A stretch of 64,000 nt of DNA, taken from the NCBI RefSeq assembly GCF_900170025.1, contig NZ_FWEX01000005.1, positions 357,073-421,072 of the forward strand. Reading direction: 5' to 3'. Each line of letters opens with the position of its first letter. Position 1 is the stretch's first letter. The notes below the pieces were generated by a model. It saw only the letters and a program-made list of their open reading frames with translations, searched no databases and had not been told where the DNA came from. The DNA comes from Nitrospira sp. ND1. GTDB lineage: Bacteria; Nitrospirota; Nitrospiria; Nitrospirales; Nitrospiraceae. Shown here one piece after another: positions 1-16,802 of this stretch. The position numbers and the translations under genes are program-made.

Positions 1-729
1 ACCCTTTATGCCCTTCAACACATCATGCCCAGCAAAGATCAGCTGGCCCAAGCGGCCATCCATGTCGAGCAGAACGTGCTTGGCGAAGCCGTCGGTTGCC
101 AGGATCAAGTGCTCGCGGCGCATGGCAGTCTCTGCAAAGCGACGTTTTTTCAGAACGGAGAGATCGGGCATACCCCGATCATCATGCAACCCGACCGGCT
201 TGCCGCCTTTCAGAGCCACTTGCAACTCTACTTCACAGGGTTTTCGCGGATTGCGTCGGAGGTGGCTCGCGAGCAGATCGATCGCACGAGTCAACGCAAA
301 GCCGAACTGTTTGCCATGCTGGAAATGGTCGAAGAGGGCATCACGATCCTCACCGGCGGCGGCGACCTAGCTGCGTTTGGAACCCTGCTGCACGAAGGCT
401 GGATGCTCAAACGCCGCTTGACGTCACGGATCACCACTCCGGCCATCGACGAGATTTACACGGCGGCCAGGGCGGCCGGCGCACTGGGCGGAAAGTTGCT
501 GGGCGCCGGAGGCGGAGGGTTCATGCTCCTGTTTGCCAAGCCGGAGGACCATGAGCGGATTCGCAGCGCTCTGCCAGGATTGTTGCAGGTTCCGTTTAAG
601 TTTGAAGGCCTGGGTACACAGATCGTGTTTTATCAGGAAGATCATCTCATGCTCGACGACGTGTGGGCTCACAACTCGGCTGATACGGCCTCCCAACTGA
701 AGGCCGCGTTACTCGGAAAGGCAGCGTGA
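1..729 (+). CDS. hddA: GHMP kinase, D-glycero-D-manno-heptose 7-phosphate kinase-like (5' end outside window)
   Basis: The reading frame is open from base 1, so the N-terminal part lies outside the window. About 242 residues remain, covering the C-terminal half of a GHMP kinase. The glycine-rich segment GAGGGGFMLLF near the C-terminus is typical of the HddA branch. By family knowledge this kinase phosphorylates D-glycero-D-manno-heptose 7-phosphate at C1 in the cytoplasm, on the way to a GDP-activated heptose. Its stop overlaps the GTG start of the nucleotidyltransferase that follows, which fits the hddA-hddC order. A different sugar substrate is possible, because the ATP-binding half cannot be seen. 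Confidence 0.8.
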   Translation, partial: TLYALQHIMPSKDQLAQAAIHVEQNVLGEAVGCQDQVLAAHGSLCKATFFQNGEIGHTPIIMQPDRLAAFQSHLQLYFTGFSRIASEVAREQIDRTSQRKAELFAMLEMVEEGITILTGGGDLAAFGTLLHEGWMLKRRLTSRITTPAIDEIYTAARAAGALGGKLLGAGGGGFMLLFAKPEDHERIRSALPGLLQVPFKFEGLGTQIVFYQEDHLMLDDVWAHNSADTASQLKAALLGKAA

Positions 730-1493
730 AGATGGGCCGGTTTGCGGATTGCGATGTGGTCATTCTGTGCGGGGGGCTCGGTACACGCCTGCAATCTGTC
801 GTGGCGGATCGCCCGAAATCGATGACGGAGATTCATGGCCGCCCGTTTGTGGCATGTCTCGTCGAACATTTTCTGCGCCATGGCACGCGTCGGTTTATTT
901 TCAGCACCGGATACAAGGGCGACATGATCGAGGACTGGTTTGGCCGCCATCGAGGCGGGTATGAAACCCTGTTCGTCCGCGACCCCGCTCCGCTGGGAAC
1001 GGGCGGAGCGGTCGCGCAAGCGATGAAGCTCGTTCGCAGCAATCCATTTTTGGTGCTGAACGGAGACTCCCTCTGTGAGCTCGATCCGGAGCGACTCCTG
1101 CGGTTCCATACCCGTAAACGCGCCCGCGCGACGATCGCGGTCACCCAAGCCGACTCACGGGAAGATACCGGAGCCGTCACGTTAGGGGAGGACGACCGCG
1201 TCCTGTCCATGGTGGAGAAGCCGCGCACCAGAACGACGGGCTATCACAATGCCGGCATCTATCTGTTCGATCGTACCGTCGAGGCGCTGTTTCCGAACAG
1301 TCGTTCCTGGTCACTGGAGCGCGAGTTACTTCCGCAGCTGGTCACCGAACCGTTCTATGGATTTGTCACAGCCAGCGCGCTGTACGACATCGGCACCCCC
1401 GAACGCCTCGTGCATTTTCGCGAGGTCTGGAAAGACCCGTCAGTTCATTTTCCGGTCACATCTATGCATCAGGAACAAGGATCGCTGTTGTAA
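726..1493 (+). CDS. hddC: Sugar-phosphate nucleotidyltransferase, HddC-like
   Basis: A 255-residue NTP-transferase-fold protein. The N-terminal signature CGGLGTRL and the following RPKSM are the nucleotide-binding loop and catalytic region of the RfbA/HddC/RmlA superfamily, and VLNGDSL carries the metal-binding Asp. The expected reaction is transfer of a nucleoside monophosphate to a sugar 1-phosphate, giving GDP-heptose if it works with the preceding kinase. The GTG start at 726 overlaps the upstream TGA (GTGA), so translation is probably coupled. No left-handed beta-helix domain follows, so it is the short form. The choice of GDP-heptose over another activated sugar is inferred from the neighbour. 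Confidence 0.8.
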   Translation: MKMGRFADCDVVILCGGLGTRLQSVVADRPKSMTEIHGRPFVACLVEHFLRHGTRRFIFSTGYKGDMIEDWFGRHRGGYETLFVRDPAPLGTGGAVAQAMKLVRSNPFLVLNGDSLCELDPERLLRFHTRKRARATIAVTQADSREDTGAVTLGEDDRVLSMVEKPRTRTTGYHNAGIYLFDRTVEALFPNSRSWSLERELLPQLVTEPFYGFVTASALYDIGTPERLVHFREVWKDPSVHFPVTSMHQEQGSLL

Positions 1494-2713
1494 TGGCTCA
1501 TCGGACAGTCCCGGGTTCACAGACAACGCGCCGATTGGCATTTTCATCGCGAGGTGAACGCCTGATCGGGCAGGAGATGTTCCGGGTCATGGATCGGGCT
1601 CAAGCCCTGGAGCGGCAGGGGTATCGCATCTATCATCTGGAACTCGGCAATCCCCGCATGGCTCCGCCGGGTGAAATCGTCGACGGCACCGTGCAGGCGC
1701 TCCGCGAGAAACAGCTGGGATATGCGCCGATGGCCGGTGTGAAGGAATTACGAGCCGCGTTGGCGGCTCGATACACCTCGTTGACGGGCGAGGCGCTGAC
1801 CGACTCCCAGGTCGTGATCAGCCCTGCGAATCTCCTGATTCATCAGTTTCTGGACATCACCTGCAATCCCGGCGATCGCGTGGTGCTGTTCACGCCGGCA
1901 TTTCCCTCCTACTGGGCCGCTGCGACGCATCAGGGACTTCAGGTCAGGCCGGTGCCGCTTTCTGAGCGCGACGGATTTCACCTGACCCGACAGGCCATCG
2001 ATGACGCGCTGGCTGCCGGACCAAGGGCGATTGTCGTCAACAACGCCAACAACCCCACGGGGGCCCTCTACGATTCGACGATTCTGCGCGCGCTTGCGGC
2101 ACGCTGTGAAGAGACGGGCATCTGGCTGTTAAGCGATGAAACGTACGCCGATCTGACCTTCGATGGTTCGTTCGTGACCCTCGCCTCGGCGCGAGCCGGA
2201 TACGTCGTAGCGATGTCGTCCTTTTCAAAGGTGTGCTCGATCCCAGGGTTTCGAACCGGATATGCCTTCGCCCATGAGGCGGTGGCGGCAAAACTCGCGC
2301 TCTCCAATTCCACCCTCTATTCCTGTCTTCCCCTGTTTACTCAACTGGGTTGCTTGGCCGGTATGAAGGTACTCGATACCTATGCGAACGAGGTTCGATC
2401 ACGCGGCTCCCGCCTCATCGGATCCTGCCACGACCGCATCAACCGCTCCGGCATCCTGCATTGCCACAAGCCGGAGTCAGGGTTTTATCTGTTTGTCGAT
2501 ATCGCGCGCACCGGGCTCGACGATATGACCTTTTGCCGGCGACTACTGGACGATCACCATACGGCGGTCACCCCAGGCCGTAGTTTCGGCGAAGCCTACG
2601 CGTCGTTCATTCGCATAGCCGTGTGCGGGCAGGAAGAGGATGTGCACGAAGGCCTGTCGCGTACGATCGCCTTTGCGCAACAACTGGGAGGTTGCCGTGT
2701 CCAAGCCGCTTGA
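1493..2713 (+). CDS. PLP-dependent aminotransferase, class I/II (fold type I)
   Basis: A 406-residue fold-type I aminotransferase. Visible features are NNANNPTG (cofactor and substrate contact), the Asp of SDETYADL, and SFSKVCSIPGFRTGY with the Schiff-base Lys at about residue 246. The closest familiar relatives are amino-acid aminotransferases of the AspC/AlaA type, not the DegT/ArnB sugar aminotransferases common in glycan loci. It may therefore make or use an amino-acid precursor. Its ATG overlaps the upstream TAA (TAATG), so it is part of the same operon. The substrate cannot be told from sequence. Confidence 0.8.
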   Translation: MAHRTVPGSQTTRRLAFSSRGERLIGQEMFRVMDRAQALERQGYRIYHLELGNPRMAPPGEIVDGTVQALREKQLGYAPMAGVKELRAALAARYTSLTGEALTDSQVVISPANLLIHQFLDITCNPGDRVVLFTPAFPSYWAAATHQGLQVRPVPLSERDGFHLTRQAIDDALAAGPRAIVVNNANNPTGALYDSTILRALAARCEETGIWLLSDETYADLTFDGSFVTLASARAGYVVAMSSFSKVCSIPGFRTGYAFAHEAVAAKLALSNSTLYSCLPLFTQLGCLAGMKVLDTYANEVRSRGSRLIGSCHDRINRSGILHCHKPESGFYLFVDIARTGLDDMTFCRRLLDDHHTAVTPGRSFGEAYASFIRIAVCGQEEDVHEGLSRTIAFAQQLGGCRVQAA

Positions 2714-4205
2714 CGTGTTGCTGATCACCCCGCCTAGTCGGGTACAGGTGTATCAGGAGTTGAGCCGGGACTTCGCCGCCATCGAACCGCCGGTCTGGTC
2801 TGGTTTGATCGCGACCTTCCTGCGACAACACAGCTGCTCCGTGGCCATTCTGGATGCCGAGGCAGAGGGGTTGAACCACCAGCAGACGGCGGATCGGATC
2901 GCCGCCATTGCGCCGAGACTCGCGGTCTTCGTGATCTATGGGCAACAACCGTCCGCCTCCACACAATGTATGCCGGCCGGCCGGAAGGTGTGCGAAATCC
3001 TGACTGCGCTGGCCGATATTCCCACGCTCGTGATGGGGACTCACCCGTCGGCCCTGCCGAAGCGCACCCTGCTGGAAGAGCCCTATACCTATGTCTGCCA
3101 GGGAGAAGGTCCTGCCACGATTCTCGGTCTGGTGATTGCCTTACGCGCACCGCAACATTCGCTTCGCGAGGTTCCCGGCTTATGGCACATGGAGAAGGGT
3201 GTGCCGGTCGGCAATGCGCCGGCGCAACTGCTGACGAATCTGGATTGCGAGGTGCCGGGGCAGGCCTGGGATCTCCTCGACATGACCCGCTATCGCGCCC
3301 ACAACTGGCATTGCTTCGGCAATCTTGAGGCGCGGGCTCCGTACGCGTCGTTGCAGACGAGTCTGGGCTGTCCCTTCACCTGTTCGTTCTGTTGTATCAA
3401 TTCACCCTTCGGGACTCCCATGTTACGGACCTGGAGCCCGGACAATGTCATTGCGCAGATCGACCGGCTGGTCCGGGACTATGGCGTCACCAATATCAAA
3501 ATCCCCGATGAAATGTTTGTGCTGAATCGGCGGCATGTGATCGGCATTTGCGATCGCATCATCGAACGAGGATACCGGCTCAATATCTGGGCCTACGCCC
3601 GGGTGGACACGGTCCAGGACGAAGTGTTGGCGAAACTCGCGCGGGCGGGATTTACCTGGCTGGGGCTCGGCATCGAATCCGGAAGCCAGCATGTCCGCGA
3701 CGGCGTCGAAAAGGGCCGCTTCGTCGAACGGGACATTGTGGCGACGGTCGACAAGATCCGCTCGTACGGCATTCATGTAGCGGCCAACTATATCTTCGGC
3801 CTACCGGACGACACGATGGAGAGTATGCGCGCGACCTTGGACTTGGCCCTCACGCTGAATACGGAATGGGCCAACTTTTACTGTGCCATGGCCTACCCCG
3901 GCTCGCCGCTGTATGACCTGGCGAAGCAGAAGCACTGGACGCTGCCGGATGATGAAGGCGGCCCCGGATGGATCGGTTATTCGCAACATGCTTACGAGTG
4001 CTCTCCCTTGCCGACCGACAGCCTCACGGCCACACAGGTGTTGGCGTTCCGGGATCGCGCATTCATGGAGTATTTCACCCATCCGGACTATCTCGGCATG
4101 CTCCGGCAGACATTCGGAGCGCAGGTCGCCACCCATGTAGAGGGCATGTGCCGGCACCAGGTCCGCCGTCGTCATCACGATGTGGTCACCGATGCAGTTG
4201 CGTAG
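2697..4205 (+). CDS. B12-binding domain radical SAM protein
   Basis: A 502-residue protein from a GTG at 2697, preceded by GGGAGG six bases upstream and overlapping the aminotransferase by 17 bases. An upstream in-frame ATG at 2640 has no such ribosome site. Residues 5-140 form a cobalamin-binding-like Rossmann domain (MGTHPSALPKRTL, QGEGPATIL). The radical SAM core follows, with the [4Fe-4S] cysteines in GCPFTCSFCC (about Cys225, Cys229, Cys232). Members of this class methylate unreactive carbons or rearrange small molecules and lipids. In this operon it may modify a sugar or sugar-linked group, but the substrate is unknown. Confidence 0.85.
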   Translation: MSKPLDVLLITPPSRVQVYQELSRDFAAIEPPVWSGLIATFLRQHSCSVAILDAEAEGLNHQQTADRIAAIAPRLAVFVIYGQQPSASTQCMPAGRKVCEILTALADIPTLVMGTHPSALPKRTLLEEPYTYVCQGEGPATILGLVIALRAPQHSLREVPGLWHMEKGVPVGNAPAQLLTNLDCEVPGQAWDLLDMTRYRAHNWHCFGNLEARAPYASLQTSLGCPFTCSFCCINSPFGTPMLRTWSPDNVIAQIDRLVRDYGVTNIKIPDEMFVLNRRHVIGICDRIIERGYRLNIWAYARVDTVQDEVLAKLARAGFTWLGLGIESGSQHVRDGVEKGRFVERDIVATVDKIRSYGIHVAANYIFGLPDDTMESMRATLDLALTLNTEWANFYCAMAYPGSPLYDLAKQKHWTLPDDEGGPGWIGYSQHAYECSPLPTDSLTATQVLAFRDRAFMEYFTHPDYLGMLRQTFGAQVATHVEGMCRHQVRRRHHDVVTDAVA

Positions 4206-4230
4206 CGACAGAGAGGGGAAAGGAGCGGTC

Positions 4231-6069
4231 ATGATCAAGGTTGCAGACTTCATCATTCATACATTGGCGGAGCGCGGAATCGACAAGATGTTCGTGGTCT
4301 ACGGCGCCGCCAACGGTGACCTGATCGATGCGTTTACACGCACCGCCGCCACGGAATACGTCGCCGTCATGCACGAGCAGGCCGGCGGGTTTGCAGCCGA
4401 GGCCTATGCAAAAGTGAAGGGCGTGCCCGGTGTAGCCATCGCCACCAGCGGACCGGGCGGGATGAATCTTCTCACGGCGATGGGCAACTGCTTTTATGAC
4501 TCCGTGCCCTGCGTCTTTATGACCGGCCAGATCAATTCCCGGTTCCTCCGGCCCGATCCTGCCATTCGCCAGATCGGATTCCAGGAGACCGACATCGTCG
4601 CCATGGCGGCTCCGGTCACGAAGTACGCGAAAATGATTCTGAAGCCCGAAGATGTTCGGTATGAGCTGGAGAAAGCGCTGTGGCTTTGCCAGGAAGGACG
4701 GCCGGGACCGGTACTGTTGGATATTCCCCTCGATGTCCAAAAGACGATGATCGATGCCAAGAAGCTCATCGGCTTCGAGCCCCCGGCCGCCGTGAGTTTC
4801 GACCTCACGGTGGTCGATGAGCAGATCTCCCGGTTTATCACCGAGCTCCAACATGCTGAACGACCGGTCATTCTCGTCGGCGGCGGCGTCCGCCTCGCGG
4901 ATGCCCAGGATGACGTGCGCGCCTTGGGACGGCGGTTGAACGTGCCCTGTTTTCCGACCTGGAATGCCTTGGACGTGATCAGCTCGGACTATGAAAACTA
5001 CGGCGGCCGGGTCGGCACGTACGGGGGAGCCGGCCGGAACTTCGGAATTCAAAACAGTGACTTGCTGCTGTCGATCGGCAGCCGTATCTCCGGCCGCATT
5101 ACCGGCGGCAATGTCCAAAGCTTTGCGCGCCAGGCCAAGAAGTTCCTGGTGGAAATCGATCCGGCCATGGTGCAACGGAAGTTTCAGCAGGTTCCTTTCG
5201 ATGTGAACATTCTCTGCGACGCCAAGGTGTTCACTCAGCGCCTGTTGATCGCCCTCGATCGGCGGAGCAAACCATTGCCGAACTATTCGGGCTGGACAGA
5301 ACGGGTGATGGAATGGAAACGCCAGTACGATCCCGTCCGGCCTGAATTTTTCGCCCAGCGTGAGCGGGTGCACCCCTATGCATTCATGCGTCGCCTTTCC
5401 GAAAAGATGGGTGCCACGGATATTCTCGTCGGGGATTGCGGCGGCAATATCGTCGTCAGCAACCATGCCTTTGAAACTAAATACGGGCAGCGGAATCTCA
5501 CGAACAACGGCAACTCTCCCATGGGATTCTCGTTTGCCGGAGCGATGGGTGCCTGGTTTGCCGCGCCAAGCCGTCAAGTGGTCTGCACCATCGGGGACGG
5601 GGGCTTCAACATGAATCCTCAGGAACTGCAGACCTTCATCAATTACGGCGTCAAAGTTAAAACCTTCATTCTCAATAATCACATTTACGGAATCACCAAG
5701 GCCTACCAGGAGACCAATTTTCAGGGCCGCGCGGAGGCCTGCGGGCCGAAGGGCTACAACCCTCCCGATTTTCTGAAGATCGTGCAGGCCTACGGAATCA
5801 AGACGGTGGCCATCCACAACCATGCCGAGATGGATGCGAAGATTGAAGAGGTACTGCAATTCGACGGGCCGGTGGTCTGCGATGTGGACATGCATGAATT
5901 CCACACCTACGAGCCCAGGATCTTCGGATGGAAGACGCCCATCGAGGATATGTATCCCTATCTGCCGCGTGAAGAATTCCGAGCCAACATGGTTATCGAA
6001 CCGGCTGAGGGCTGGATGAACCCGGAATACCCGGACGTCGTTCGCCGGAACGATCGGTCACAGCCGTAA
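4231..6069 (+). CDS. Thiamine diphosphate-dependent enzyme, acetolactate synthase-like
   Basis: A 612-residue three-domain ThDP enzyme. The ATG at 4231 is chosen because AAAGGAG lies just upstream. The N-terminal pyrimidine domain has the conserved Glu in MHEQAGGFAAEAYA. The central domain is the transhydrogenase-like fold, and the C-terminal domain has the ThDP/Mg motif GDGGFN followed by ILNNHIYG. It resembles IlvB but lacks an adjacent regulatory subunit gene and lies in a glycan operon. Known ThDP enzymes in such loci (YerE of yersiniose synthesis) add a two-carbon unit to a keto-sugar to give a branched sugar. That role is inferred here; plain acetolactate synthesis cannot be excluded. 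Confidence 0.75.
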   Translation: MIKVADFIIHTLAERGIDKMFVVYGAANGDLIDAFTRTAATEYVAVMHEQAGGFAAEAYAKVKGVPGVAIATSGPGGMNLLTAMGNCFYDSVPCVFMTGQINSRFLRPDPAIRQIGFQETDIVAMAAPVTKYAKMILKPEDVRYELEKALWLCQEGRPGPVLLDIPLDVQKTMIDAKKLIGFEPPAAVSFDLTVVDEQISRFITELQHAERPVILVGGGVRLADAQDDVRALGRRLNVPCFPTWNALDVISSDYENYGGRVGTYGGAGRNFGIQNSDLLLSIGSRISGRITGGNVQSFARQAKKFLVEIDPAMVQRKFQQVPFDVNILCDAKVFTQRLLIALDRRSKPLPNYSGWTERVMEWKRQYDPVRPEFFAQRERVHPYAFMRRLSEKMGATDILVGDCGGNIVVSNHAFETKYGQRNLTNNGNSPMGFSFAGAMGAWFAAPSRQVVCTIGDGGFNMNPQELQTFINYGVKVKTFILNNHIYGITKAYQETNFQGRAEACGPKGYNPPDFLKIVQAYGIKTVAIHNHAEMDAKIEEVLQFDGPVVCDVDMHEFHTYEPRIFGWKTPIEDMYPYLPREEFRANMVIEPAEGWMNPEYPDVVRRNDRSQP

Positions 6070-6079
6070 GGGGACTGAT

Positions 6080-9000
6080 ATGTCGCAAGGTGCACGTGAG
6101 ACAAACCGAGTGACTCCGCTGGACGTTGAGTACTACCAATTCTGCCGCGAACAGCTGCGTCCCTATTTCGGTCGGGTGATGTGGGCATCGCAAGGACTCC
6201 CGCTTCGCCACGTAGTGATGCAGGAACTGGTGCGGCTGGAGGCCTCCCGGCAAGGTGCAGGTCCGTTTCATATTCTTGAGGTGGGATCATGGGCCGGGGG
6301 ATCGGCTATTACGTGGGCCGAGGCGTTGACCCGGCATCATCGAGCCGACGGCCGTGTCGTCTGTGTGGATCCCTGGAAGCCGTATTTCGATGTGAAGAAG
6401 CGGCCGGACGCGGCCGTGTACCGTGAGATGTCCGACGCCTTGGCCAACGATACGATCTACGAGTTGTTTCTGCATAACATCACCACTGCCGGCCATGCGG
6501 GGCTGGTCCTTCCGCTTAGAGGGGCCGCCACAGCCATGTTGCCGGCCCTTCCGCGGAACTATTTCGATCTCGTCTTTGTCGACGGCGACCACTCCTATGC
6601 GGCAGTGCTGGCGGATATTCAGGCGGCCGGGGGCCTGATCAAGGATGGGGGCGTCTTGTGCGGTGACGATCTGGAACGTCAATCATTCGAAATCGACCAG
6701 GCCTATGCCCGCACTCAGATCGAGTCGGACTACATTCGCGATCCGCGATCGGGGCACGAATATCATCCCGGCGTCACGTTGGCCGTGGGGGAACTCTTCG
6801 GTGAAGTGTCCCAAGTGGCAGGGTGCTGGGCGGTGAGAAAACGCGGCACTGGTTGGGAACGCTTCGACATGTCACCGGCGCGCTGTTCTGAGGATCGTAT
6901 TCCCGCTCATCTCATTCGCCGGGACCCCACGGTGGATCAGGAGTTTCAACGCTGGCGGGAACAACGAAGCCGACCGGCGAGTGTGGCTGTGCCCAGGGGA
7001 GCGGAACGCGGCGAACAGGTCCGGACTGCTTCGGCAGTTTCCAGAGCTTCTGTCGCCGCTCCTCGGCAACGAGCCCTGTTGATTCAATTGGATTTCCAAA
7101 CCTGGGCCACCGCACGCCCTTGGACCTATAGCGCAGCTTTCGGTGTGCAGGAAGGTTTGCGGGCGAACGGCGTCGAGTGTGTCACCGTGCCGGCAATCGC
7201 CGAGAACGCCTGCTCCACGCCTGCGTCATGGGTCTACCATGCCAGGAAGGCCCTGGCCGGTCAGCACTTCGATCAGGTATGGCTCTGGCTCATCCATACG
7301 CCTCTCGACCAGGCTACGCTGGAATGGGTCGCTCAATTGGCGCCGGTGCGAGTCGGGGTCCTCATGGAGTCGCTTCGCTACGATGCGGACGACTATTCCT
7401 GGGCGCCACAGTTGAAAGGTCGTGCCGCACACTTGGAAGCGCAACTTCCCTATTTGACCCATGTGCTGGCGCCGGACGAGCAGGATGCCGCCGAGCTCCG
7501 GACGCGTGGATTCGCCAACGTGCTCTGGTGGCCGCCGATGGTTCCGGAACGGTTCATCGTTACTCCCGCCGGCGCTCCGACCCAGCCACAGGCTGTCTTC
7601 CATGGAACGCCGTATGGGCGGCGGCAGCATTGGGTGAGTGAGCCATCACTGAGCAGGCGTCTGCAATACGCGAAAGGGGCTCAGCCTCCTACGAACAATC
7701 AGCAGTTGTTCGATCAGTTGCAGCAAGTCGCGGCCCAATACCTGGCAGAAGGCCATGCAGTCACCGACGAGGCTATCCGGGAATATGCTCAATCCTTGCA
7801 ACAGATCCGCCTCGCCGAATTCAACGAGTGGATGGGGCACCTGGCTCAATGGCCGGCTATCGTGAACCTGCCGAGCCTCGCCAAATTTTATGGCGGACGG
7901 GTCATCGAAGCCATGGCGGCCGGTCGACCGGTGATCTCCTGGGACATTCCCGGGCATCCGAAGAACAGGGGACTCTTCGAACCGGAGAAAGACATCCTGC
8001 TGTTCCCCCAGGATGCGCCTGAAGCCCTTGCCGGGCAGATCGACCGGATTCTGCATGATCGCGCATTGGCCGAGTCCCTGGCTCAGCGGGCGCAGGGCAA
8101 GATCAAACGGTATCACACAGCCGAACGACGCCTTCAGGGAACCTTGGAGTGGATTCGCACCGGACAGACTCCGGACTATGGCTTGTCGGAACAGGCAAAC
8201 TCCCCATCCGCAGCCCAGACCACGGTTCCGGCGCCTGCAGCTCAATCCTCGCCGTCCGCCACAGGGTTGCCGACGGCAGACCCGATTTCCCACCCATCAG
8301 CCAAGGTGTCTATGGATCAGAATGCCTTTTATGTAGACCTATTCGTGAACAAACCGGCTTGGTCGACACCCGAACCGAACGCCGATGAAGCGGCGCGCTG
8401 GTCGAAGATTGCGTCGTTCCTTGAACATGTCGTGCGACAGACGCGGCGCGAGACTCCCGGTCGCACGCTACGCATTCTCGATGTGGGTTGTGGTCGAGGA
8501 TGGCTGACGAATCTGGCGACAGTCTATGGGACCTGTGAAGGCATCGAGCCGGTGGCCGGCGTGGTCGAGCATGCGCGTCGGATGTTTCCCCACATTCGGT
8601 TCGAGGCGGGCACACCCGAGACGGTGTTGGCCAGGCCGGACTTCATGCCGTTCGATATCGTGCTCTGTTCAGAAGTCATTGAACATGTCCCCCATCCAGA
8701 GAAGCCGGGGTTCGTCAGCCAACTGGCGCAGCTCCTCACCAGTGAAGGCTATCTCATTCTGACGACTCCGCGCGGGGATGTGTGGGAAGAATGGCGACGC
8801 ATCGCTCCGCCCAATCAGCCCGTTGAGGATTGGGTGACGGAGCAGCAGCTGGGCCAACTATTGGCCGACGGTGGCTTTCATCATTTGGGACTGGAACGCA
8901 TTCCGATCGAAGTGCCTTCCCTCCGGTATTTCCCGGCGGCCACCGCCCATGACTATCGAACCAAGACACTCATGCCCATTTATCAGGTCTGGGCCTGCCG

Positions 9001-11440
9001 TCGCACGGCGGCGACGGGGACGCACCCGGTGCCGTTTACACGACGACCGATGGTGTCGGTGATTGTGCCGACCTATAACCGGCCGGACCGCTTGCGCATG
9101 GCCTTGGAGAGTCTCAACTCTCAGCAGTACCAGGATTTCGAAGTGATCGTGGTCAATGACGGCACGACTCCGGTCGAATCCGTTGTCGCTGAGATGAACC
9201 GTGCCGGACGAACGACGCTTGTGAATCATGACCGCAACCGGGGACTGGCAGGGGCGCGCAACACCGGTCTTCGCCATGCCACCGGGACCTACGTCGCCTA
9301 TCTCGATGACGATGACCGCTTCCTGCCCGATCACCTGGGCACGCTCGTCGCCTTTCTCGAACGTGGCACCCATCAGGTGGCCTACACCGATGCCTGGCGT
9401 GTCACCGAACAAGAAGCGGGAGCCGAGGCGACGGTATTGCGTCGTGACCGGCCCTACTCCTATGAGTTCGATGCTCAGCGTCTGCTTGTTCACAACTATA
9501 TTCCGGTGCTCTGTCTGATGCACCGGCGGTCCTGCCTCGATGAGGTGGGCTTGTTCGACGAAAGTCTGTTCGTCCATGAAGACTGGGATCTCTGGATCAG
9601 GCTCGCCACCGTCTATCCTTTTGCGCACATCGCGCAGACGACCGCAGAGTTCACGTGGAGAACCGACGGCTCATCGATGACCAGTCACGATCACGATGCC
9701 TTCTGCCGCACCACCGATATCATTTATCGAAAATACTTTCCGTACGTGGCGGCGAAGCCGACAATGCTGGAGGCACAACGACACCATTTGGCGGGGCTGA
9801 AGGGCCGGGCAAAAACGCCATCGTATGCTTGCTCGATCGTTATTCCCGTCTGGAACAATGCGGCCTTGACCCGGCAATGTCTGACGGCGCTGGCGGAGGT
9901 CACCGACGACGTAACCTATGAAGTGATTCTGGTCGATAACGGATCGACGGACGGCGTGCAGGATTTTCTCCGGACGCTCGGGGGTGACGTACAAGTGATC
10001 CGCAACGAAGAGAACCTCGGATTTGCCAAGGCCTGCAATCAGGGCGCGCGGGCGGCACGCGGCGAATTCCTGGTGTTTCTGAATAACGACACGATTCCAT
10101 TGAAGGGATGGCTGTCGGCGCTGGTCGAGGACATCCGCGCCCACGCGGATGTGGCGGTGGTGGGCAGCAAACTCCTCTTCGAAGACGGGTCGATCCAACA
10201 TGCCGGCGTTGCCTTCTCACGTGAATGTCTGATGCCTTACCATATGTATCGCGGAGGTCGCGCCGAGGCGGCCTGTGCAAACAGACGGCGCGAATTGCAG
10301 TGCGTCACCGCCGCATGCATGCTCGTGCGCCGTAGCGTCTTTGAGCAGGTGGATGGATTCGACGAAGGCTATCGAAACGGCTTTGAGGATGTCGATCTCT
10401 GTCTCAAAATTCGGAAGCAAGAGTGGAAGATCGTCTATCAACCCAAGAGTGTGCTCTATCACCTGGAAAGCAAGACACCGGGCAGGAAAATACATGAACT
10501 CGACAACAGCCAACGCCTCCGGGAGCGCTGGGGCGCCTGTTGGTGGGTGACGGATGAAGATCTCCTGCACTTTGAAGATGGATATGCCATTCACACGCAT
10601 GTCACCGACGGCATATTGAGCTACCGTCTTCAAGTGATTGCCGACCCGGAGACCAAGACCCAACGGGCGATCCTGGCGGAGGTCCAGGGGGCAGCTCTTC
10701 GCCGCGACTTCAATGCCGTCTCCGCCTTCCTCGCGCGCGTGGATGAGTGGCCCGCAGACCCATGGATCCTGCGTTGGGGGGTGCTCGTCTGTCTCGGGGT
10801 CGCCCAACCCCAACTGGCTATTCCATTCTGGCGACGCATCCTCACCTTCGAGGAAGACGCCTATGCCCGTATCGGACTGGCGAAACAAGCGCTGGAAACA
10901 GGTGTGTTCGATGAGGCGGACTTCCATTTGACGGCGCTGCTGCAACAGGACCCTTCGCATGGAGAAGGTTGGCTGCTGCGCGGGATCGTGGCCATGCAAC
11001 GCAACGCGTATCAGCAGGCGGAAGAGGCGTTCGAGCGGGCGAAACTCTCCGGTGCCGATTCACGCAAAGCCTCCTTGGGCATCGTCATGGCGGCGATGGG
11101 TGCCGGGCGGGCCGAAGCAGCCTGGTCGCAATTGATGGCCCTTTGTGCGAATGAGCCGGACGACGAAGAATGTATGCATTGGCTGCTCCGATGCGGAACC
11201 ATGCTCCAACGGTGGGAGGCGGTCGCCTCGCGACTCGCGGCATTTGTCGCCCGCAATCCGGGCAATGTCGCCATGCGGTTTGCCTTGGCAGGGGTGCTCT
11301 TGCGATCCGGACGGCGAGGGGACGCGCAACGAGAATTCGAACGGCTGCGCGCACTGTCCCCGACATTCGAAGGAATGGACGAACTGGCCAGGCAACTGGC
11401 CGAGGCCGAGGGCCAACTGGTTCCAGACCATGCTGCATGA
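6080..11440 (+). CDS. Giant multidomain methyltransferase-glycosyltransferase-TPR protein
   Basis: A 1786-residue single ORF with five enzymatic modules. Residues about 45-265 are a class I SAM methyltransferase (ILEVGSWAGG near 65). Residues about 330-695 resemble a CgeB-type glycosyltransferase (LIQLDFQTW near 331, VIEAMAAGRPVISWD near the end). Residues about 745-975 are a second methyltransferase (ILDVGCGRGW near 799). Residues about 988-1230 are a GT2 domain (VSVIVPTYNRPDR, YLDDDDRF). Residues about 1248-1510 are a second GT2 domain (SIVIPVWNN, FLNNDT). Residues 1540-1786 are TPR-like helical repeats. No signal peptide is visible. It probably assembles and methylates a glycan on a protein or lipid acceptor, with the TPR part binding a partner. 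Its place just upstream of flagellin points to flagellin glycosylation. Confidence 0.85.
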   Translation: MSQGARETNRVTPLDVEYYQFCREQLRPYFGRVMWASQGLPLRHVVMQELVRLEASRQGAGPFHILEVGSWAGGSAITWAEALTRHHRADGRVVCVDPWKPYFDVKKRPDAAVYREMSDALANDTIYELFLHNITTAGHAGLVLPLRGAATAMLPALPRNYFDLVFVDGDHSYAAVLADIQAAGGLIKDGGVLCGDDLERQSFEIDQAYARTQIESDYIRDPRSGHEYHPGVTLAVGELFGEVSQVAGCWAVRKRGTGWERFDMSPARCSEDRIPAHLIRRDPTVDQEFQRWREQRSRPASVAVPRGAERGEQVRTASAVSRASVAAPRQRALLIQLDFQTWATARPWTYSAAFGVQEGLRANGVECVTVPAIAENACSTPASWVYHARKALAGQHFDQVWLWLIHTPLDQATLEWVAQLAPVRVGVLMESLRYDADDYSWAPQLKGRAAHLEAQLPYLTHVLAPDEQDAAELRTRGFANVLWWPPMVPERFIVTPAGAPTQPQAVFHGTPYGRRQHWVSEPSLSRRLQYAKGAQPPTNNQQLFDQLQQVAAQYLAEGHAVTDEAIREYAQSLQQIRLAEFNEWMGHLAQWPAIVNLPSLAKFYGGRVIEAMAAGRPVISWDIPGHPKNRGLFEPEKDILLFPQDAPEALAGQIDRILHDRALAESLAQRAQGKIKRYHTAERRLQGTLEWIRTGQTPDYGLSEQANSPSAAQTTVPAPAAQSSPSATGLPTADPISHPSAKVSMDQNAFYVDLFVNKPAWSTPEPNADEAARWSKIASFLEHVVRQTRRETPGRTLRILDVGCGRGWLTNLATVYGTCEGIEPVAGVVEHARRMFPHIRFEAGTPETVLARPDFMPFDIVLCSEVIEHVPHPEKPGFVSQLAQLLTSEGYLILTTPRGDVWEEWRRIAPPNQPVEDWVTEQQLGQLLADGGFHHLGLERIPIEVPSLRYFPAATAHDYRTKTLMPIYQVWACRRTAATGTHPVPFTRRPMVSVIVPTYNRPDRLRMALESLNSQQYQDFEVIVVNDGTTPVESVVAEMNRAGRTTLVNHDRNRGLAGARNTGLRHATGTYVAYLDDDDRFLPDHLGTLVAFLERGTHQVAYTDAWRVTEQEAGAEATVLRRDRPYSYEFDAQRLLVHNYIPVLCLMHRRSCLDEVGLFDESLFVHEDWDLWIRLATVYPFAHIAQTTAEFTWRTDGSSMTSHDHDAFCRTTDIIYRKYFPYVAAKPTMLEAQRHHLAGLKGRAKTPSYACSIVIPVWNNAALTRQCLTALAEVTDDVTYEVILVDNGSTDGVQDFLRTLGGDVQVIRNEENLGFAKACNQGARAARGEFLVFLNNDTIPLKGWLSALVEDIRAHADVAVVGSKLLFEDGSIQHAGVAFSRECLMPYHMYRGGRAEAACANRRRELQCVTAACMLVRRSVFEQVDGFDEGYRNGFEDVDLCLKIRKQEWKIVYQPKSVLYHLESKTPGRKIHELDNSQRLRERWGACWWVTDEDLLHFEDGYAIHTHVTDGILSYRLQVIADPETKTQRAILAEVQGAALRRDFNAVSAFLARVDEWPADPWILRWGVLVCLGVAQPQLAIPFWRRILTFEEDAYARIGLAKQALETGVFDEADFHLTALLQQDPSHGEGWLLRGIVAMQRNAYQQAEEAFERAKLSGADSRKASLGIVMAAMGAGRAEAAWSQLMALCANEPDDEECMHWLLRCGTMLQRWEAVASRLAAFVARNPGNVAMRFALAGVLLRSGRRGDAQREFERLRALSPTFEGMDELARQLAEAEGQLVPDHAA

Positions 11441-12623
11441 GTCCACACAAAACAGCCGGGCGATGCTGATCCAACTGGCCAGATTAGGAGATCTGGTGCA
11501 GTCCCTTCCTGCGATCGAAGCCTTGGTGGATGCCGATCCTGAAACGCCATTGGATGTCCTTTGTTCGGCCCCCTTGGCAACGGTCCTTGGTGAAGCTCGA
11601 AACATCGGCCGTGTCATTCCCTGGGATGGCGCGCGATGGCGGGCCTGGGGCGAGCAGTGGTCGGAAGACCCGCACGGAACTCTTCGCGCCGCGCAGGCGT
11701 ATCTTGCAGGGCTCGGGGAGAGCACCTACGGCCGGATCTACCCGCTGAATCAACACAACCGTAGCCTTCTGCTGACGCATCTATTTTCCAGCCCGAGTGT
11801 GCGCGCGGATTGGGACGACCGTTCAGAGGCGCGCATACGTCCATGGGCCGAGTATCTCCGGCATATCGCGACACACCGTGGGAACAATCGGGTGCATCTG
11901 GCCGATGCCTGGTGCGGCATGAGTGGAGTCAGGCCACGAGGTCGGGCGCCGCTCTTCCAGCCTCCGGCCGTCGAGCTTCCCGACGACCTCGCTCCCATCG
12001 GCGAACGGCAGGGTCTCTGGATCGCGTTGGTCACCGGCGCAGGAGAGACGGATCGTTGTGTCTCACCGGCCACATGGGGCCGATGGACCAAAGAGTTTCT
12101 GACACAGACAGACGCAGGACAGGTCGTGCTGATCGGAAGCGGACGCGAGCGTGAAACCGGACAGGCCATTCTCGAATTGGTTCCCACGTTGCTCCAAGGG
12201 CGTGTCTGGGACGCGACCGGCCGCACAAGCATCCCTCAGTTGATGAAGCTCCTCCACAAGTGCCGATGGGTAATCGGAGCCGACACCGGTCCGCTTCATT
12301 TGGGGACGTTGATGGGAAGTCGAGCCATAGGATTCTATTTTTCTCATGCCCGGGTGCACGAAACCGGCCCATACGGAGAAGGGCATTGGGTGTATCAACA
12401 TGCCACGCAGGCCCCGCCTGACAGCTGGCCCATCAGGGAAAGTATCGCGTTGATCTGCGACGACCAGCGTCGTGCGGCGGCCGATTGGACTCTCTGGAGG
12501 AATCGTATGGACCACTGGGGGACGAGTTTTGATGACGGTTCAGAGCAGGAGCGCGTCGAGGGCGCCCGCGCGACTGTCTGGCGAAACCTCTCTCCGACAC
12601 TGTGCGAATCGGTTGCCGCATGA
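11430..12623 (+). CDS. Glycosyltransferase family 9 (heptosyltransferase-like)
   Basis: A 397-residue GT9 protein. The ATG at 11430 overlaps the end of the giant gene by 11 bases; an internal ATG at 11463 would begin directly at the conserved MLIQLARLGDLVQSLPA. The C-terminal part has WVIGADTGPLHLGTLMG, the GT9 nucleotide-sugar site. GT9 enzymes usually transfer heptose from ADP- or GDP-heptose, consistent with the heptose-activating genes at the start of the operon. The product is cytoplasmic and lacks membrane segments. The acceptor is unknown; flagellin or a glycan on it is inferred from position. Confidence 0.8.
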   Translation: MLHESTQNSRAMLIQLARLGDLVQSLPAIEALVDADPETPLDVLCSAPLATVLGEARNIGRVIPWDGARWRAWGEQWSEDPHGTLRAAQAYLAGLGESTYGRIYPLNQHNRSLLLTHLFSSPSVRADWDDRSEARIRPWAEYLRHIATHRGNNRVHLADAWCGMSGVRPRGRAPLFQPPAVELPDDLAPIGERQGLWIALVTGAGETDRCVSPATWGRWTKEFLTQTDAGQVVLIGSGRERETGQAILELVPTLLQGRVWDATGRTSIPQLMKLLHKCRWVIGADTGPLHLGTLMGSRAIGFYFSHARVHETGPYGEGHWVYQHATQAPPDSWPIRESIALICDDQRRAAADWTLWRNRMDHWGTSFDDGSEQERVEGARATVWRNLSPTLCESVAA

Positions 12624-14437
12624 ATATGTTCAACGACAACGTTGCCCGGTTGGCCCTAAGGGATGAGCCTCTCGCTGCGGCGGTGAAGGCCTCGGCGGGC
12701 GGCGCACTCACGATCGAGCCGGCGCGGAGCGGCGTGCCTTCGGCGCGACGATCCGGCCGGTGGATTCACAGCGCCTATGATCCGCTCCGCGAAGCGGACA
12801 CCTGGGCCGAAACCCATGCGCCCGCCTGTCGGGAAGGTGAAACCGTCGTCGTGGCCGGCGTCGGGCTGCTGTACCACGTTGAGGCACTTCGGAAAAGACT
12901 GGCGTCGGACATTGTGGTCGCGGTGCTGATCTCCGATCTCAACGAATTTCATGATGCGCTCGTCGCACGGCCCCTCGGATCATGGACCGACCACATTCGC
13001 TGGCTCTCCGGAACGCCGGTCGAGATCGCTGACCGACTGAGCAAGACGGGCCGCGCCCTGCGCTGTCTGTCCTATGCTCCGGCCACACACACGGATTCAG
13101 ACTTCCACAGTGCGTTCGAGGAAGCCTTACGTCGCGGAGTCGCGCGACAGGCGGGTGGACAGCTGACGATTGCGCTGGTGGGGCCCATTTACGGCGGTTC
13201 GCTGCCGATTGCGCGTTATGTGAGACGGGCTCTGGAAACCCTCGGGCACAAGGTGCACTGGATCGATCACAGTGTGCATGCGTCAAGTTATGAGGCGATG
13301 GGGACGCTGAAAGATGCGCGCAATCGCCAACTGATGCAAGGTCGCATGGCCGAAGTCTTGAGCCAATGGACCTTGGCCTCTCTGGCCGAGTCACCTCCCG
13401 ACCTCGTCTTGTCGCTGGCTCAGGCCCCGTTGACGTTGCCGGTGCTCGAACATCTCCGCAAGAAGAAGTTGCTGACCGCCATGTGGTTCGTGGAGAACTA
13501 TCGCCACTTGACCTATTGGCAACAGATGGCGCCGGGGTATGACTACTGGTTCGTGTTTCAACGGGGGGCCTGTCTCGATGCCTTCCGGCAGGCGGGTGCT
13601 CGGCAGGTCAGCTTTCTGCCCATGGCGGCTGACCCCGAGCTGCATCGCCCGATGGATCTGTCGGATGAGGAACGGCGCACCTATGGTGCGGATGTCTCCT
13701 TCGTCGGCGCAGGGTATCCGAATCGCCGGCGTCTGTTCCCGGCACTGCTGCGCCGACCCTGGTCGTTCAAACTCTGGGGGAATGAGTGGGACGGAGCCGA
13801 CGAGCTCCAATCCGTCCTCCAACTCAACGGCGCACGGATCGATACGGACACCTGCATGAAGGTGTTCAACGCCACGGCGATCAATTTGAATGTCCATTCC
13901 ACGACCGGCGCGGGCCTTGATCCGCAAGCTGATTTCGTCAATCCACGGACTTTTGAACTGGCAGCCTGCGGCGCCTTTCAGTTCGTCGATTCTCGCTCCC
14001 AGTTGCCGGAATTTTTCACCGACCGGGAGTTAGTCTCGTTCCGGAACTTCGATGACATTCCCGGACTCGTGGGGCAATGGCTCGGAGATCCGGCGGCTCG
14101 GCAAGCCATGGCCGCTGCCGCCCGCACACGTGTCTTGGGCGCGCATACCTATGTGCATCGGATGCGGGACTTGTTGGGACACATCGGATTGTCTCAGCCC
14201 GATCGAGTCGGGGCCGTGCTGCGAGGAGACCGACAGCAAGAAGCCCTGCTCTCGCGTTGCGCCGGAGATGCGCCGCTGGAATCGCTGCTCAAGGCCTTTC
14301 CTGCCGGACAGCGGGTTGAGTTGAAGGATGTCGCCGCACGAATTCGCAGCAAAGGCTCGACCGCGACACTCAAGCGGGAAGAATTGATGGTGTTGATGTT
14401 GGATGAATACCGGAGCGAGACACGCGATCTGTTATGA
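12620..14437 (+). CDS. CgeB-like glycosyltransferase
   Basis: A 605-residue protein starting at the ATG that overlaps the previous TGA (ATGA). Residues about 190-330 contain LVGPIYGGSLPIARYV and a DUF3880-like segment (AMWFVENYRHLTYW). Residues about 350-530 hold the C-terminal nucleotide-sugar half (VSFVGAGYPNRRRLFP, NPRTFELAACGAFQFVDS). This arrangement matches CgeB/spore-maturation-type glycosyltransferases found in flagellin and surface glycan loci. It resembles part of the giant protein upstream, so the locus carries at least two enzymes of this type. It is followed by another ATGA overlap. Confidence 0.75.
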   Translation: MNMFNDNVARLALRDEPLAAAVKASAGGALTIEPARSGVPSARRSGRWIHSAYDPLREADTWAETHAPACREGETVVVAGVGLLYHVEALRKRLASDIVVAVLISDLNEFHDALVARPLGSWTDHIRWLSGTPVEIADRLSKTGRALRCLSYAPATHTDSDFHSAFEEALRRGVARQAGGQLTIALVGPIYGGSLPIARYVRRALETLGHKVHWIDHSVHASSYEAMGTLKDARNRQLMQGRMAEVLSQWTLASLAESPPDLVLSLAQAPLTLPVLEHLRKKKLLTAMWFVENYRHLTYWQQMAPGYDYWFVFQRGACLDAFRQAGARQVSFLPMAADPELHRPMDLSDEERRTYGADVSFVGAGYPNRRRLFPALLRRPWSFKLWGNEWDGADELQSVLQLNGARIDTDTCMKVFNATAINLNVHSTTGAGLDPQADFVNPRTFELAACGAFQFVDSRSQLPEFFTDRELVSFRNFDDIPGLVGQWLGDPAARQAMAAAARTRVLGAHTYVHRMRDLLGHIGLSQPDRVGAVLRGDRQQEALLSRCAGDAPLESLLKAFPAGQRVELKDVAARIRSKGSTATLKREELMVLMLDEYRSETRDLL

Positions 14438-16110
14438 GCAAGCAAGTGCTTCTCATCAATATCACCCGGATGGGCGATCTCGTGCAAATGGGCACGTTGC
14501 TGCAACGCCTCCAGCATGAGTGGCCGGGAGCCGCCGTCGATCTGGTCGTGGATCGACGCTTCGCTCCGATCGCGAAACTCCTGCCTCACCTCCGACACAT
14601 CATCGAGTATGACTTTCATCGCCTGGTCGACGAGAGTCGCGCGCAAACGAAGGATGTCGTGACCCTCTACCGTGAGATGACAGGCTGGGCGGCGCCGTTA
14701 ATCGAGGCCCGGTACGACCGCGTCGTAAATTTGACCTTCAATCGCCGGAGCGGACTGCTGGCCTCCTACGTCGGCGCCAAAGAGATTCGAGGCATCGCGG
14801 CTCCGAAAGACGGGGACGTGGCCATCCATAACCCGTGGATGGCCTATTTAACCGATGTGCACAGTCAACGGCAGTTCAATCACTTCAATCTGGTAGATAT
14901 CTACGCCTTGGGCGGAAGCGGTACCGGACCCTTTGCACCCTTGTCGCTCGACATTCCCCCGGGCACGGCGCAATGGGCACGTGATTTTTTTGCACCGTAC
15001 GGCGGACAACGGATGCCCTGGACGGCGGTGCAAGTCGGGGCCAGCGATCCTATGAAGGCCTGGCGACCGGAACTCTTCGGGCAGACCCTGGCCGCGCTGA
15101 GTCGGCAGACACCGGTCGGATATGTCTTTATCGGGACGGAGAGCGAGCGGAAGGCGATTGAAACCGCACAGATGGCCTATCGGCAAGCCGGTGGACGCGG
15201 GCCTCTCTGCGACGCGGTCGGACGGACCACGCTGCCTCAGCTCGCTGCGGTGCTGGCCCAGTGCCGACTCCTGCTGACCAACGACACCGGCCCCATGCAC
15301 CTCGCAGTAGGAGTGGGCACTCCGGTGATCGATCTCTCGGTCGGGCATGTCGACTTTCGCGAGACGGGTCCCTATGGACCGGGGCATTGGATCGTCCAGC
15401 CGGATATGGGGTGCGCGCCCTGCGGATTCGATCAGGTCTGTTTGCACCACGCCTGCAAGGATCGGCTGGTGCCGGATCAAATTGCCGCGCTGTGCCTGCA
15501 TATGCTCAATGGAGGCGCATTTCCAGAAAAATTAACCGGCATCAAGATCTATCGGTCCCGCGTGGATGAGGACGGGCTGGGAAGCACTGAACTTCATGCA
15601 GGACGGGAAGATCCCACGGTCAGCTGGTATGGCCGATTCTGGCGGCGGTTCTGGTTCGAGCAATTTACGGGTCGTCCCAGTCTGGTACCCATGGTTTCGG
15701 AGCCTCCGCCCGACTGGAAGGAGAGCATGGCACTCCTGGATCGGCTTATGCCTCTCGCGGCCAGGCTGGTATCCAGAGCAGAGGAACTGGTTCGTTTGAC
15801 CGCCCGACGGCCGTTGCCGATCAGTACCCTGCAGCAGATGCAGCTTGAGGAGAGCGGGGAGCGTCAGACGGTTGTGGCGCTCAGTCTCCAATCTCCGGCG
15901 ACCGCATCCCTGGCCGTGGCCCTTGTGCGGGATACCCACAACGACGACGGCCACGAACTGACCGGCATGGCCGAAGCCCGTCTTGCCACCTATCGGCGCT
16001 GGCAGAACAGGCTGCATGTGGTCGCGGCCGGTTTCCGTGCTTTCAAGACACCGCAAGGTTTCACACCACGTGGAACCAGGATGGCTATTCCCATGGCGCC
16101 TATTGGATAG
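14434..16110 (+). CDS. Glycosyltransferase family 9 with C-terminal extension
   Basis: A 558-residue protein. The first 365 residues or so are a full GT9 enzyme: VLLINITRMGDLVQMGTLLQ at the start, LLLTNDTGPMHLAVGVG, and the Cys/His motif GCAPCGFDQVCLHHAC seen in many family members. The last 190 residues are not part of the usual GT9 fold and show no domain I recognise; they are mostly helical in character. The ATG overlaps the previous stop (ATGA). The presence of two GT9 enzymes fits a glycan with at least two heptose-like residues. This is the last long gene of the operon before flagellin. Confidence 0.8.
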   Translation: MSKQVLLINITRMGDLVQMGTLLQRLQHEWPGAAVDLVVDRRFAPIAKLLPHLRHIIEYDFHRLVDESRAQTKDVVTLYREMTGWAAPLIEARYDRVVNLTFNRRSGLLASYVGAKEIRGIAAPKDGDVAIHNPWMAYLTDVHSQRQFNHFNLVDIYALGGSGTGPFAPLSLDIPPGTAQWARDFFAPYGGQRMPWTAVQVGASDPMKAWRPELFGQTLAALSRQTPVGYVFIGTESERKAIETAQMAYRQAGGRGPLCDAVGRTTLPQLAAVLAQCRLLLTNDTGPMHLAVGVGTPVIDLSVGHVDFRETGPYGPGHWIVQPDMGCAPCGFDQVCLHHACKDRLVPDQIAALCLHMLNGGAFPEKLTGIKIYRSRVDEDGLGSTELHAGREDPTVSWYGRFWRRFWFEQFTGRPSLVPMVSEPPPDWKESMALLDRLMPLAARLVSRAEELVRLTARRPLPISTLQQMQLEESGERQTVVALSLQSPATASLAVALVRDTHNDDGHELTGMAEARLATYRRWQNRLHVVAAGFRAFKTPQGFTPRGTRMAIPMAPIG

Positions 16111-16154
16111 CGACAGAAGACGTACGTTTGACACTCGGCTAAAGGAGTCCGATC

Positions 16155-16697
16155 ATGCATATCACCCTCGATGGCGAACAGTGGCAGATACCGGATGACA
16201 CTTCTCTCATGAACGCCCTGGCGTTTCTCAGCGACAAAGCTCATGCCCAACATCGCATCGTGACGTCGTTGACGGTCGGCGGGAAGGCCATCAGCGATCG
16301 CGATTTGGATCCGGCCTTTTTGAATCAACGGGGGCAAGATGTGGGAGAGGTGTCCGGGCGGTCTCAATCGCTGCACGCCATCATTACAGATGCGAAACAG
16401 ACCATCGACCGGTTTGCCGCGCAGTTGCGAGCCGATGGCCTGGTCCTGCTCGGCCCGCTCCGCTCGGGAACCGGGCAGGTGGGAACCATCGATGCCTGGC
16501 TGGGCCGTCTTGCAGATTATACCGAAATGCTGGAAGCCGGTCAGGCACAGGGTGTCGCAGGACTGTCATCCGCGCCGCTCCTCCCGTGGATACAAGAACT
16601 CCTGGGCGCGCGAACCTTCGCCGACCCCATCCGGGTCGCGGATCTGCTGGAGTATGAATTATTACCCCTGCTCACTGAATCCAGTCAGGCTGCTTAG
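16155..16697 (+). CDS. Conserved-looking protein of unknown function upstream of flagellin
   Basis: A 180-residue protein with a clear ribosome site (AAAGGAG at about 16141). I do not recognise the family. The first 75 residues look like an alpha/beta region beginning MHITLDGEQW. The rest is helical and amphipathic (ITDAKQTIDRFAAQLRADG; DLLEYELLPLLTES). There is no signal peptide or membrane segment. It lies 44 bases after the GT9 gene and before the flagellin promoter, so it is probably the last gene of the glycan operon. A role in flagellin handling is only a guess. Confidence 0.7.
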   Translation: MHITLDGEQWQIPDDTSLMNALAFLSDKAHAQHRIVTSLTVGGKAISDRDLDPAFLNQRGQDVGEVSGRSQSLHAIITDAKQTIDRFAAQLRADGLVLLGPLRSGTGQVGTIDAWLGRLADYTEMLEAGQAQGVAGLSSAPLLPWIQELLGARTFADPIRVADLLEYELLPLLTESSQAA

Positions 16698-16775: not shown

Positions 16776-16802
16776 TAAGTCTTCCCGACAGCCTACCGAT
16801 AA
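16776..16802 (+). promoter_or_regulatory. Sigma-28 (FliA)-type promoter of flagellin
   Basis: TAAG, 15 bases, then ACCGATAA. This matches the FliA consensus TAAA-N15-GCCGATAA at 10 of 12 positions. It lies about 130 bases upstream of the flagellin ATG, giving a leader of roughly 120 bases. This is the best of several similar sites in the window. Confidence 0.75.

Follow-up and report, generated by a model that had tools for sequence, protein, structure and literature searches.

In the yersiniose A pathway of Yersinia pseudotuberculosis, a DdhC-type 3-dehydratase, a pyridoxal phosphate (PLP) enzyme of the His type, yields a 3-deoxy-4-keto-sugar that is branched at C4 by YerE, a thiamine diphosphate (ThDP) enzyme of the decarboxylase type. 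JanthE and ErwE are ketone-accepting carboligases of the decarboxylase superfamily, and JanthE was described as a YerE-like enzyme that joins 2-keto acids with ketones (PMC12188165). Split-gene transketolases stand beside keto-sugar genes in the miharamycin and amipurimycin systems, where a hydroxyacetyl branch was proposed; a review naming as keto-sugar branching enzymes the same three ThDP superfamilies that we describe below regards the transketolases as still unproven, and its split-gene members are from Streptomyces only (PMC12247030). In the GDP-heptose pathways of the Campylobacter jejuni capsule, which comprise HddA/HddC, Cj1427 and the HS:5 C3-dehydratase and include no ThDP or radical S-adenosylmethionine (SAM) step, Cj1427 is the C4-dehydrogenase, with L-2-hydroxyglutarate as co-product; C4-dehydrogenase and C3-dehydratase come from different serotypes, and joined in vitro they form GDP-3-deoxy-4-keto-heptose (PMC10680097). 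Here we describe an operon of Nitrospira sp. ND1 that reaches into a stretch of 64,000 nucleotides (the window, positions 357073-421072 of contig NZ_FWEX01000005.1 in a genome of 4.45 Mb). It shares with yersiniose A a dehydratase of the His type and a ThDP enzyme of the decarboxylase type, and with C. jejuni the types of activation enzyme, C4-dehydrogenase and C3-dehydratase. It differs from yersiniose A, which is built on a CDP-hexose through a 4,6-dehydratase for lipopolysaccharide (LPS), in having GDP-heptose and C4-dehydrogenase genes at a flagellar locus, with an additional B12-type radical SAM enzyme and an aminotransferase. On our best reading, the pathway would combine GDP-heptose modification with branching of the YerE type, each of a known kind, in a sugar that is itself undescribed.

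From its gene families, we take it as rather probable that the operon yields a GDP-activated 3-deoxy-heptose branched at C4, which ends up, within a glycan, on flagellin. A Cj1427-like short-chain dehydrogenase/reductase (SDR) would oxidise C4, and a ColD-like DegT enzyme, its PLP lysine replaced by His, would take off the 3-hydroxyl to give GDP-3-deoxy-4-keto-heptose. The YerE-like ThDP enzyme would then decarboxylate a 2-keto acid, its donor probably coming from the class I aminotransferase (AT1), and the resulting acyl carbanion would add to the C4 ketone, leaving a tertiary alcohol with a carbon branch. The radical SAM enzyme may act on the sugar nucleotide, its site perhaps being the exocyclic C6-C7 diol, which would stay intact by the C4-dehydrogenase route, unlike the 4,6-dehydratase route. 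A giant methyltransferase/glycosyltransferase/TPR protein, two GT9 enzymes and one CgeB-type transferase would assemble or transfer the glycan. We infer each of these reactions, as well as the order of the ThDP and radical SAM steps.

Twelve genes, all in the + direction, fill the interval from flgL to fliC, with intergenic distances of -26 to +49 bp and the operon start about 2.6 kb before the window (Table 1). Their order is DegT, SDR, HddA, HddC, AT1, radical SAM, ThDP, the giant protein, GT9, CgeB-type glycosyltransferase (GT), GT9 and a 180-aa protein. Directly observed in the sequences are the gene arrangement, the protein families, the Lys-to-His change in the DegT protein and the conservation of the locus. 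Since flgK and flgL lie upstream, with fliC, flaG, fliD and fliS on the downstream side, the operon constitutes an island inside the flagellar cluster. An earlier reading of positions 1-16697, made from the sequence only, had proposed a heptose-type gene set next to flagellin. Its named genes are indeed all on the + strand and its six GT domains are present (GT1-type and two GT2 in the giant protein, GT9, CgeB-type, GT9), but the operon extends further upstream, and the two genes outside the window, DegT and SDR, would be those that decide the predicted chemistry.

The best PDB matches of the DegT protein are ColD (2gms, 171 bits), and the His that replaces its PLP-binding Lys aligns with ColD H188, in an alignment that includes ColD mutant entries; 3b8x and 2r0t are ColD mutated at this residue (H188N, H188K). 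The His motif is kept in the DegT orthologues of Nitrospira cassettes and in nearly all readable DegT genes of the related modules in other phyla. The substitution therefore indicates a 3-dehydratase type, not a transaminase. The SDR scored 384 bits over 310 residues to 6vo6, which we take to be Cj1427, while the next match had 85 bits, so that the 6vo6/6vo8 match is specific. Because of this far-ahead match and an active-site segment, TNSGYG, as in Cj1427, a 4,6-dehydratase role was ruled out. The HddA-like kinase has HddA as its top NCBIfam family and 3k85, D-glycero-D-manno-heptose 1-phosphate kinase, as its top PDB match; the HddC-like protein matched best 6jq8/5xhw, annotated as '6-deoxy-D-mannoheptose pathway protein'. 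The heptose activation read earlier is thus borne out by matches to heptose-pathway structures, and from the DegT, SDR and HddA/HddC assignments together GDP-3-deoxy-4-keto-heptose is predicted. In this sense, Nitrospira appears to hold side by side the pair of C4-dehydrogenase and C3-dehydratase. GmhA-like and GmhB-like genes and a homologue of L-2-hydroxyglutarate oxidase (lhgO-like) are found elsewhere in the same genome.

The ThDP enzyme is a three-domain protein of the decarboxylase superfamily whose top PDB match is 8rph (JanthE, 333 bits), and HEQ, with the catalytic Glu, and GDGG...N motifs are present in the orthologues checked. Acetohydroxyacid synthase was ruled out as its identity: IlvB is encoded separately in these genomes, at about 31% identity, and the tree splits the ThDP enzyme from the genomes' own IlvB at 100/100, the branch of JanthE being long and uncertain. 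The earlier suggestion of a ThDP enzyme of the branched-sugar kind agrees with its proximity to JanthE, and since JanthE adds acyl groups to ketones, a C4-branched 3-deoxy-GDP-heptose is the best reading of the product. Bradyrhizose was set aside as a product, its cluster depending on dTDP-glucose 4,6-dehydratase (PMC4743980). Among the fetched radical SAM loci, AT1 accompanies 22/22 YerE-like genes, 5/41 pairs of the pyruvate dehydrogenase (PDH) E1 type and 0/10 split transketolases, a co-occurrence that fits the probable role of AT1 as supplier of the 2-keto-acid donor. Two proteobacterial loci (L108:6677-7858, L111:10561) have, beside AT1 and between the radical SAM gene and the E1-type pair, a LeuA-like (isopropylmalate synthase) gene that lacks the C-terminal regulatory part, which suggests longer 2-keto-acid donors there. 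In one Nitrospirales locus (L059), HddA occurs with both an E1-type pair and a distant YerE-like ThDP gene. The metagenome-assembled genome (MAG) G405, with 8% contamination, has two copies of the ThDP gene (contigs C7 and C57), 93% and 100% identical to that of the window, probably from mixed strains.

Natural replacements at this locus bear on the ThDP step. A ThDP orthologue of at least 91% identity over the matched part was found in 23/29 genomes of the genus. Five others (G143, G169, G179, G346, G348) carry a split transketolase in place of AT1 and the YerE-like gene and retain DegT, SDR, HddA, HddC, the GT array, fliC and the radical SAM gene, the last at about 52% identity. The remaining genome, G406, gave no flagellin match and no radical SAM match. 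One of the two cassette types is present in every flagellin-positive genome of the genus (27/27), and the dedicated flagellar locus that the sequence-only reading had supposed is upheld by this. In two Nitrospira MAGs (L143, L150) a PDH-E1-type alpha/beta pair occupies the slot, followed by the same GT array and then fliC, and a more distant genome, G460, has the YerE-like type, placed after flgL and ahead of the GT array. The swap of three ThDP types beside the same 4-keto-3-deoxy core supports a carbon-branching role. Compared with the review, split-gene transketolases are here found in Nitrospira flagellar loci and in other phyla, replacing the YerE-like enzyme. The constant core is HddA, HddC, the predicted C4-dehydrogenase and C3-dehydratase, the radical SAM enzyme and some ThDP carboligase. 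Consequently, the combination of ThDP enzyme, radical SAM enzyme and amino-acid-type aminotransferase does not stand as the defining unit it had been taken for, AT1 and the YerE-like enzyme being exchangeable between genomes; the unusual filament sugar proposed at that time is sharpened into a specific candidate, a pathway to a branched 3-deoxy-heptose in which the ThDP step is interchangeable. Three loci (L067, L068 and L069, from G232, G388 and G266) have at the same flagellar site a different cassette, as read from translations, with a nucleotidyltransferase, DegT, AMP-ligase-like and acyl-reductase-like proteins, another ThDP enzyme (32%) and a NeuB-like synthase.

The same association occurs across phyla. 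Scanning about 85,000 species genomes with an alignment of the radical SAM enzyme gave 416 relatives, from which 80 loci were kept; a plasmid search added only 4 further loci. Outside the core Nitrospira set 61 loci were annotated, three plasmid loci included, and 51 of them have a ThDP carboligase (41 E1-type, 10 split transketolase, one locus having both, and 1 YerE-like); in the other 10 no ThDP gene was found, five of these being on short contigs. HddA is present in 47 of the 61 loci, the C4-dehydrogenase in 41, DegT in 38, HddC in 33 and an L-2-hydroxyglutarate oxidase in 10, the last fitting a Cj1427-type enzyme that releases L-2-hydroxyglutarate, while 18 control loci around distant YerE-like genes gave HddA once and the C4-dehydrogenase not at all. 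Plasmid pDMC1 of Solidesulfovibrio magneticus bears a compact module of radical SAM enzyme, kinase, E1 pair, DegT, SDR, nucleotidyltransferase, lhgO and a GmhA-like SIS protein. A DJ-1/PfpI-like and cupin-like protein or gene pair was seen in E1-type loci of Verrucomicrobia and Pelagibacteraceae (L141, L142, L116, L121). Our literature search found nothing to the point on heptose with transketolase, radical SAM and O-antigen, and earlier surveys of YerE-like enzymes may list a Nitrospira member.

The radical SAM enzyme has the CX3CX2C cluster motif and a B12-binding domain, and its family shows 62% mean column identity over 28 members of many phyla; an identical protein is encoded in a Nitrospira MAG (L084) and a close one in Candidatus Nitrospira defluvii (L087, FP929003.1). 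Its best NCBIfam models, BchE and HpnJ, have been linked to the formation of five-membered carbocycles. About half of the genomes have, in the space from the ThDP gene to the GT array, a second B12-type radical SAM gene (L037:9956-11578; also in L038, L039, L042, L044 and others; best models ApyD/HpnJ), where the rest have a Methyltransf_24 module. As to the reaction of the first enzyme, we give about even chances that, acting with the same core, it is either a C-methyltransferase or a 1,2-diol dehydratase whose target is the C6-C7 diol, so that the branched heptose would be C-methylated or deoxygenated. The closest fold of its AlphaFold2 (AF2) model (pLDDT 88.5) is AprD4, a diol dehydratase with a sugar substrate (6fd2, Z 29.5, 411 residues aligned, rmsd 2.9), which is also the top PDB sequence match, and the diol that it would need is kept by the C4-dehydrogenase route. 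Fold similarity does not decide the reaction, however, as the B12-dependent methylases MgmA and CysS follow closely, with Z about 27, and identity to AprD4 is only about 20%. Caryose is a 4,8-cyclo-3,9-dideoxy-nonose (PMC9671505), which corresponds to a 3-deoxy-heptose carrying a C2 unit joined at both C4 and C7. A carbocycle closed by the radical SAM enzyme, in which the C1-C7 heptose receives a C2 unit at C4 and a C7-C8 bond gives a caryose-like 4,8-cyclo-3-deoxy-nonose, would agree with this, with the BchE and HpnJ models and with C2 units being deliverable by all three ThDP types; it seems very unlikely, since AprD4 is closest in fold and sequence and the scores to BchE and HpnJ are far below cut-off. 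We place just as little weight on the broader proposal of a widespread pathway in which any of the three ThDP superfamilies, with this dedicated radical SAM family, would turn GDP-3-deoxy-4-keto-heptose into a caryose-like carbocyclic nonose that decorates Nitrospirales flagellin.

Other explanations concern the branch itself, the dehydratase and the destination of the glycan. The ThDP enzyme, aminotransferase and radical SAM enzyme could instead make a small acyl or amino-acid-like decoration for an ordinary heptose, as the amino-acid type of AT1 and its LeuA-like companion in the two proteobacterial loci might suggest, and acyl decorations are present on other flagellar sugars. This is quite unlikely given that transketolase or E1-type replacements stand beside the same 4-keto-3-deoxy core, that the transketolase variants lack the aminotransferase and that the cassette has no acyl-CoA ligase or acyltransferase. 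An amino sugar as the product, with the DegT protein acting as a transaminase, is hardly credible: the members of its Pfam family, DegT/DnrJ/EryC1, are mostly transaminases, but the cassette orthologues carry His for Lys, a trait of ColD and RfbH-type dehydratases, and this replacement rules the role out. It also seems unlikely that LPS or some other surface polymer receives the glycan and that the flagellar position is incidental. For it speaks the lack of a flagellin match in 17/38 module-bearing genomes, many of them incomplete MAGs and Pelagibacteraceae among them; against it, wherever the Nitrospirales region examined was contiguous, the cassette and its GT array were positioned between flgL and fliC, and no family genome lacking a flagellin match has the ThDP orthologue, with one exception: in G119 the contig ends inside the 180-aa gene, just before fliC, which explains the apparent absence of flagellin (in G421 the contig edge likewise falls inside the array). 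The earlier reading had named conservation in genomes without flagella, with an LPS role instead, as a refutation, and this applies in part: the sugar is not specific to the flagellum overall, since the module is a general pathway that was placed at the flagellin locus in Nitrospirales, and flagellar genes are within the fetched flank in only 1/61 of the wider loci.

The branched, flagellin-bound heptose that we favour has several points that weigh against it, the flagellin-negative genomes being one. JanthE residues V121, Y268, P293, Y297 and K567 correspond to F, Y, R, G and R in Nitrospira, so that Y268 is kept and K567 conservatively replaced but P293 and Y297 are not retained; a canonical GDG, not a CDG motif, is a further difference from JanthE/ErwE. 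These positions vary widely among other sugar-cluster members, and the changes at P293 and Y297 mean that acceptor or substrate preference may differ. The cassette has no obvious branch-ketone reductase, the GmhA-like protein reaches 197 of 209 bits, just under the family cut-off, and C6-C7 diol dehydration, C-methylation and ring closure are all candidate reactions of the radical SAM enzyme.

On the flagellar side, the sugar cassette is variable among the compared Nitrospiraceae flagellar loci, while GT9a, the CgeB-type transferase, GT9b, the 180-aa protein and fliC are constant; in the giant protein the N-terminal module varies between genomes and the middle and C-terminal modules are kept. 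The operon had been thought to end beside flagellin, and fliC does follow, but the last gene in 1-16697 is the 180-aa protein, and fliC begins 236 bp past it behind its own sigma28-like site, which is also present in two relatives. A pattern scan gave 2 such sites in the window at no more than 1 mismatch, compared with 0.06 expected by chance, the second (33269-33295, one mismatch) being upstream of a gene at 33607. The 180-aa protein has homologues at 39-78% identity and lies between GT9b and fliC in all compared loci. In its AF2 model (pLDDT 90.5) a small beta/alpha part at the N-terminus is followed by a helical C-terminal part; a fold search gave no PDB match at E<0.001, the protein has no Pfam match, and it could be a flagellin chaperone or a glycosylation adaptor. 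From synteny and position we infer flagellin as the glycan target. In our literature search nothing to the point was found on Nitrospira flagellin glycosylation, and the sources searched held no glycan data. Flagellin glycosylation islands of Pseudomonas and Campylobacter likewise place an exchangeable sugar cassette and glycosyltransferases beside flagellin, although instead of branched heptoses they make nonulosonic acids, rhamnose or viosamine derivatives.

Table 1. Features of the predicted heptose-branching operon and the adjoining flagellin gene of Nitrospira sp. ND1, numbered from the first letter of the window.
Feature	Position	Strand	Remarks
DegT-family C3-dehydratase (predicted)	-2565..-1372 (contig ~354507-355700), outside window	+	same operon
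SDR C4-dehydrogenase (predicted)	about -1319..-372 (contig ~355753-356700), outside window	+	same operon
HddA-like GHMP sugar-7-phosphate kinase, C-terminal part	1..729	+	start 341 bp before window; PF00288/PF08544
HddC-like sugar-1-phosphate nucleotidylyltransferase	726..1493	+	PF00483
Class I (amino-acid-type) PLP aminotransferase, AT1	1493..2713	+	PF00155
B12-type radical SAM enzyme	2697..4205	+	PF04055 + PF02310; listed open reading frame (ORF) from 2640, conserved start GTG 2697
YerE-like ThDP-dependent carboligase	4231..6069	+	Pfam TPP_enzyme N/M/C domains; listed ORF from 4180, conserved start ATG 4231
Giant modular protein	6080..11440	+	Pfam: Methyltransf_24, GT1-type, Methyltransf_23, GT2, GT2, TPR
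GT9 (heptosyltransferase-fold) glycosyltransferase a	about 11415..12623	+	PF01075; start codon uncertain
CgeB/DUF3880-type glycosyltransferase	12602..14437	+	PF13524 + PF12996
GT9 glycosyltransferase b	14434..16110	+	PF01075; best NCBIfam heptosyltransferase I, below cut-off
180-aa protein between GT9b and fliC	16155..16697	+	
Sigma28-like promoter of fliC (predicted)	16776..16802	+	TAAGTCTT-N11-ACCGATAA; pattern scan
fliC flagellin, 275 aa, presumed glycan acceptor	16934..17761	+	PF00669 143 bits, E 1.5e-41

The interchange of three ThDP superfamilies at one slot constitutes natural evidence for keto-sugar branching by split transketolases and E1-type enzymes, and such swaps for the same branching step would make the chemistry predictable. 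A large radical SAM family, with its many relatives from a single scan, may in this way gain a defined biochemical context. For Nitrospira, which are major nitrifiers, the operon would offer the first concrete hypothesis of flagellin modification.

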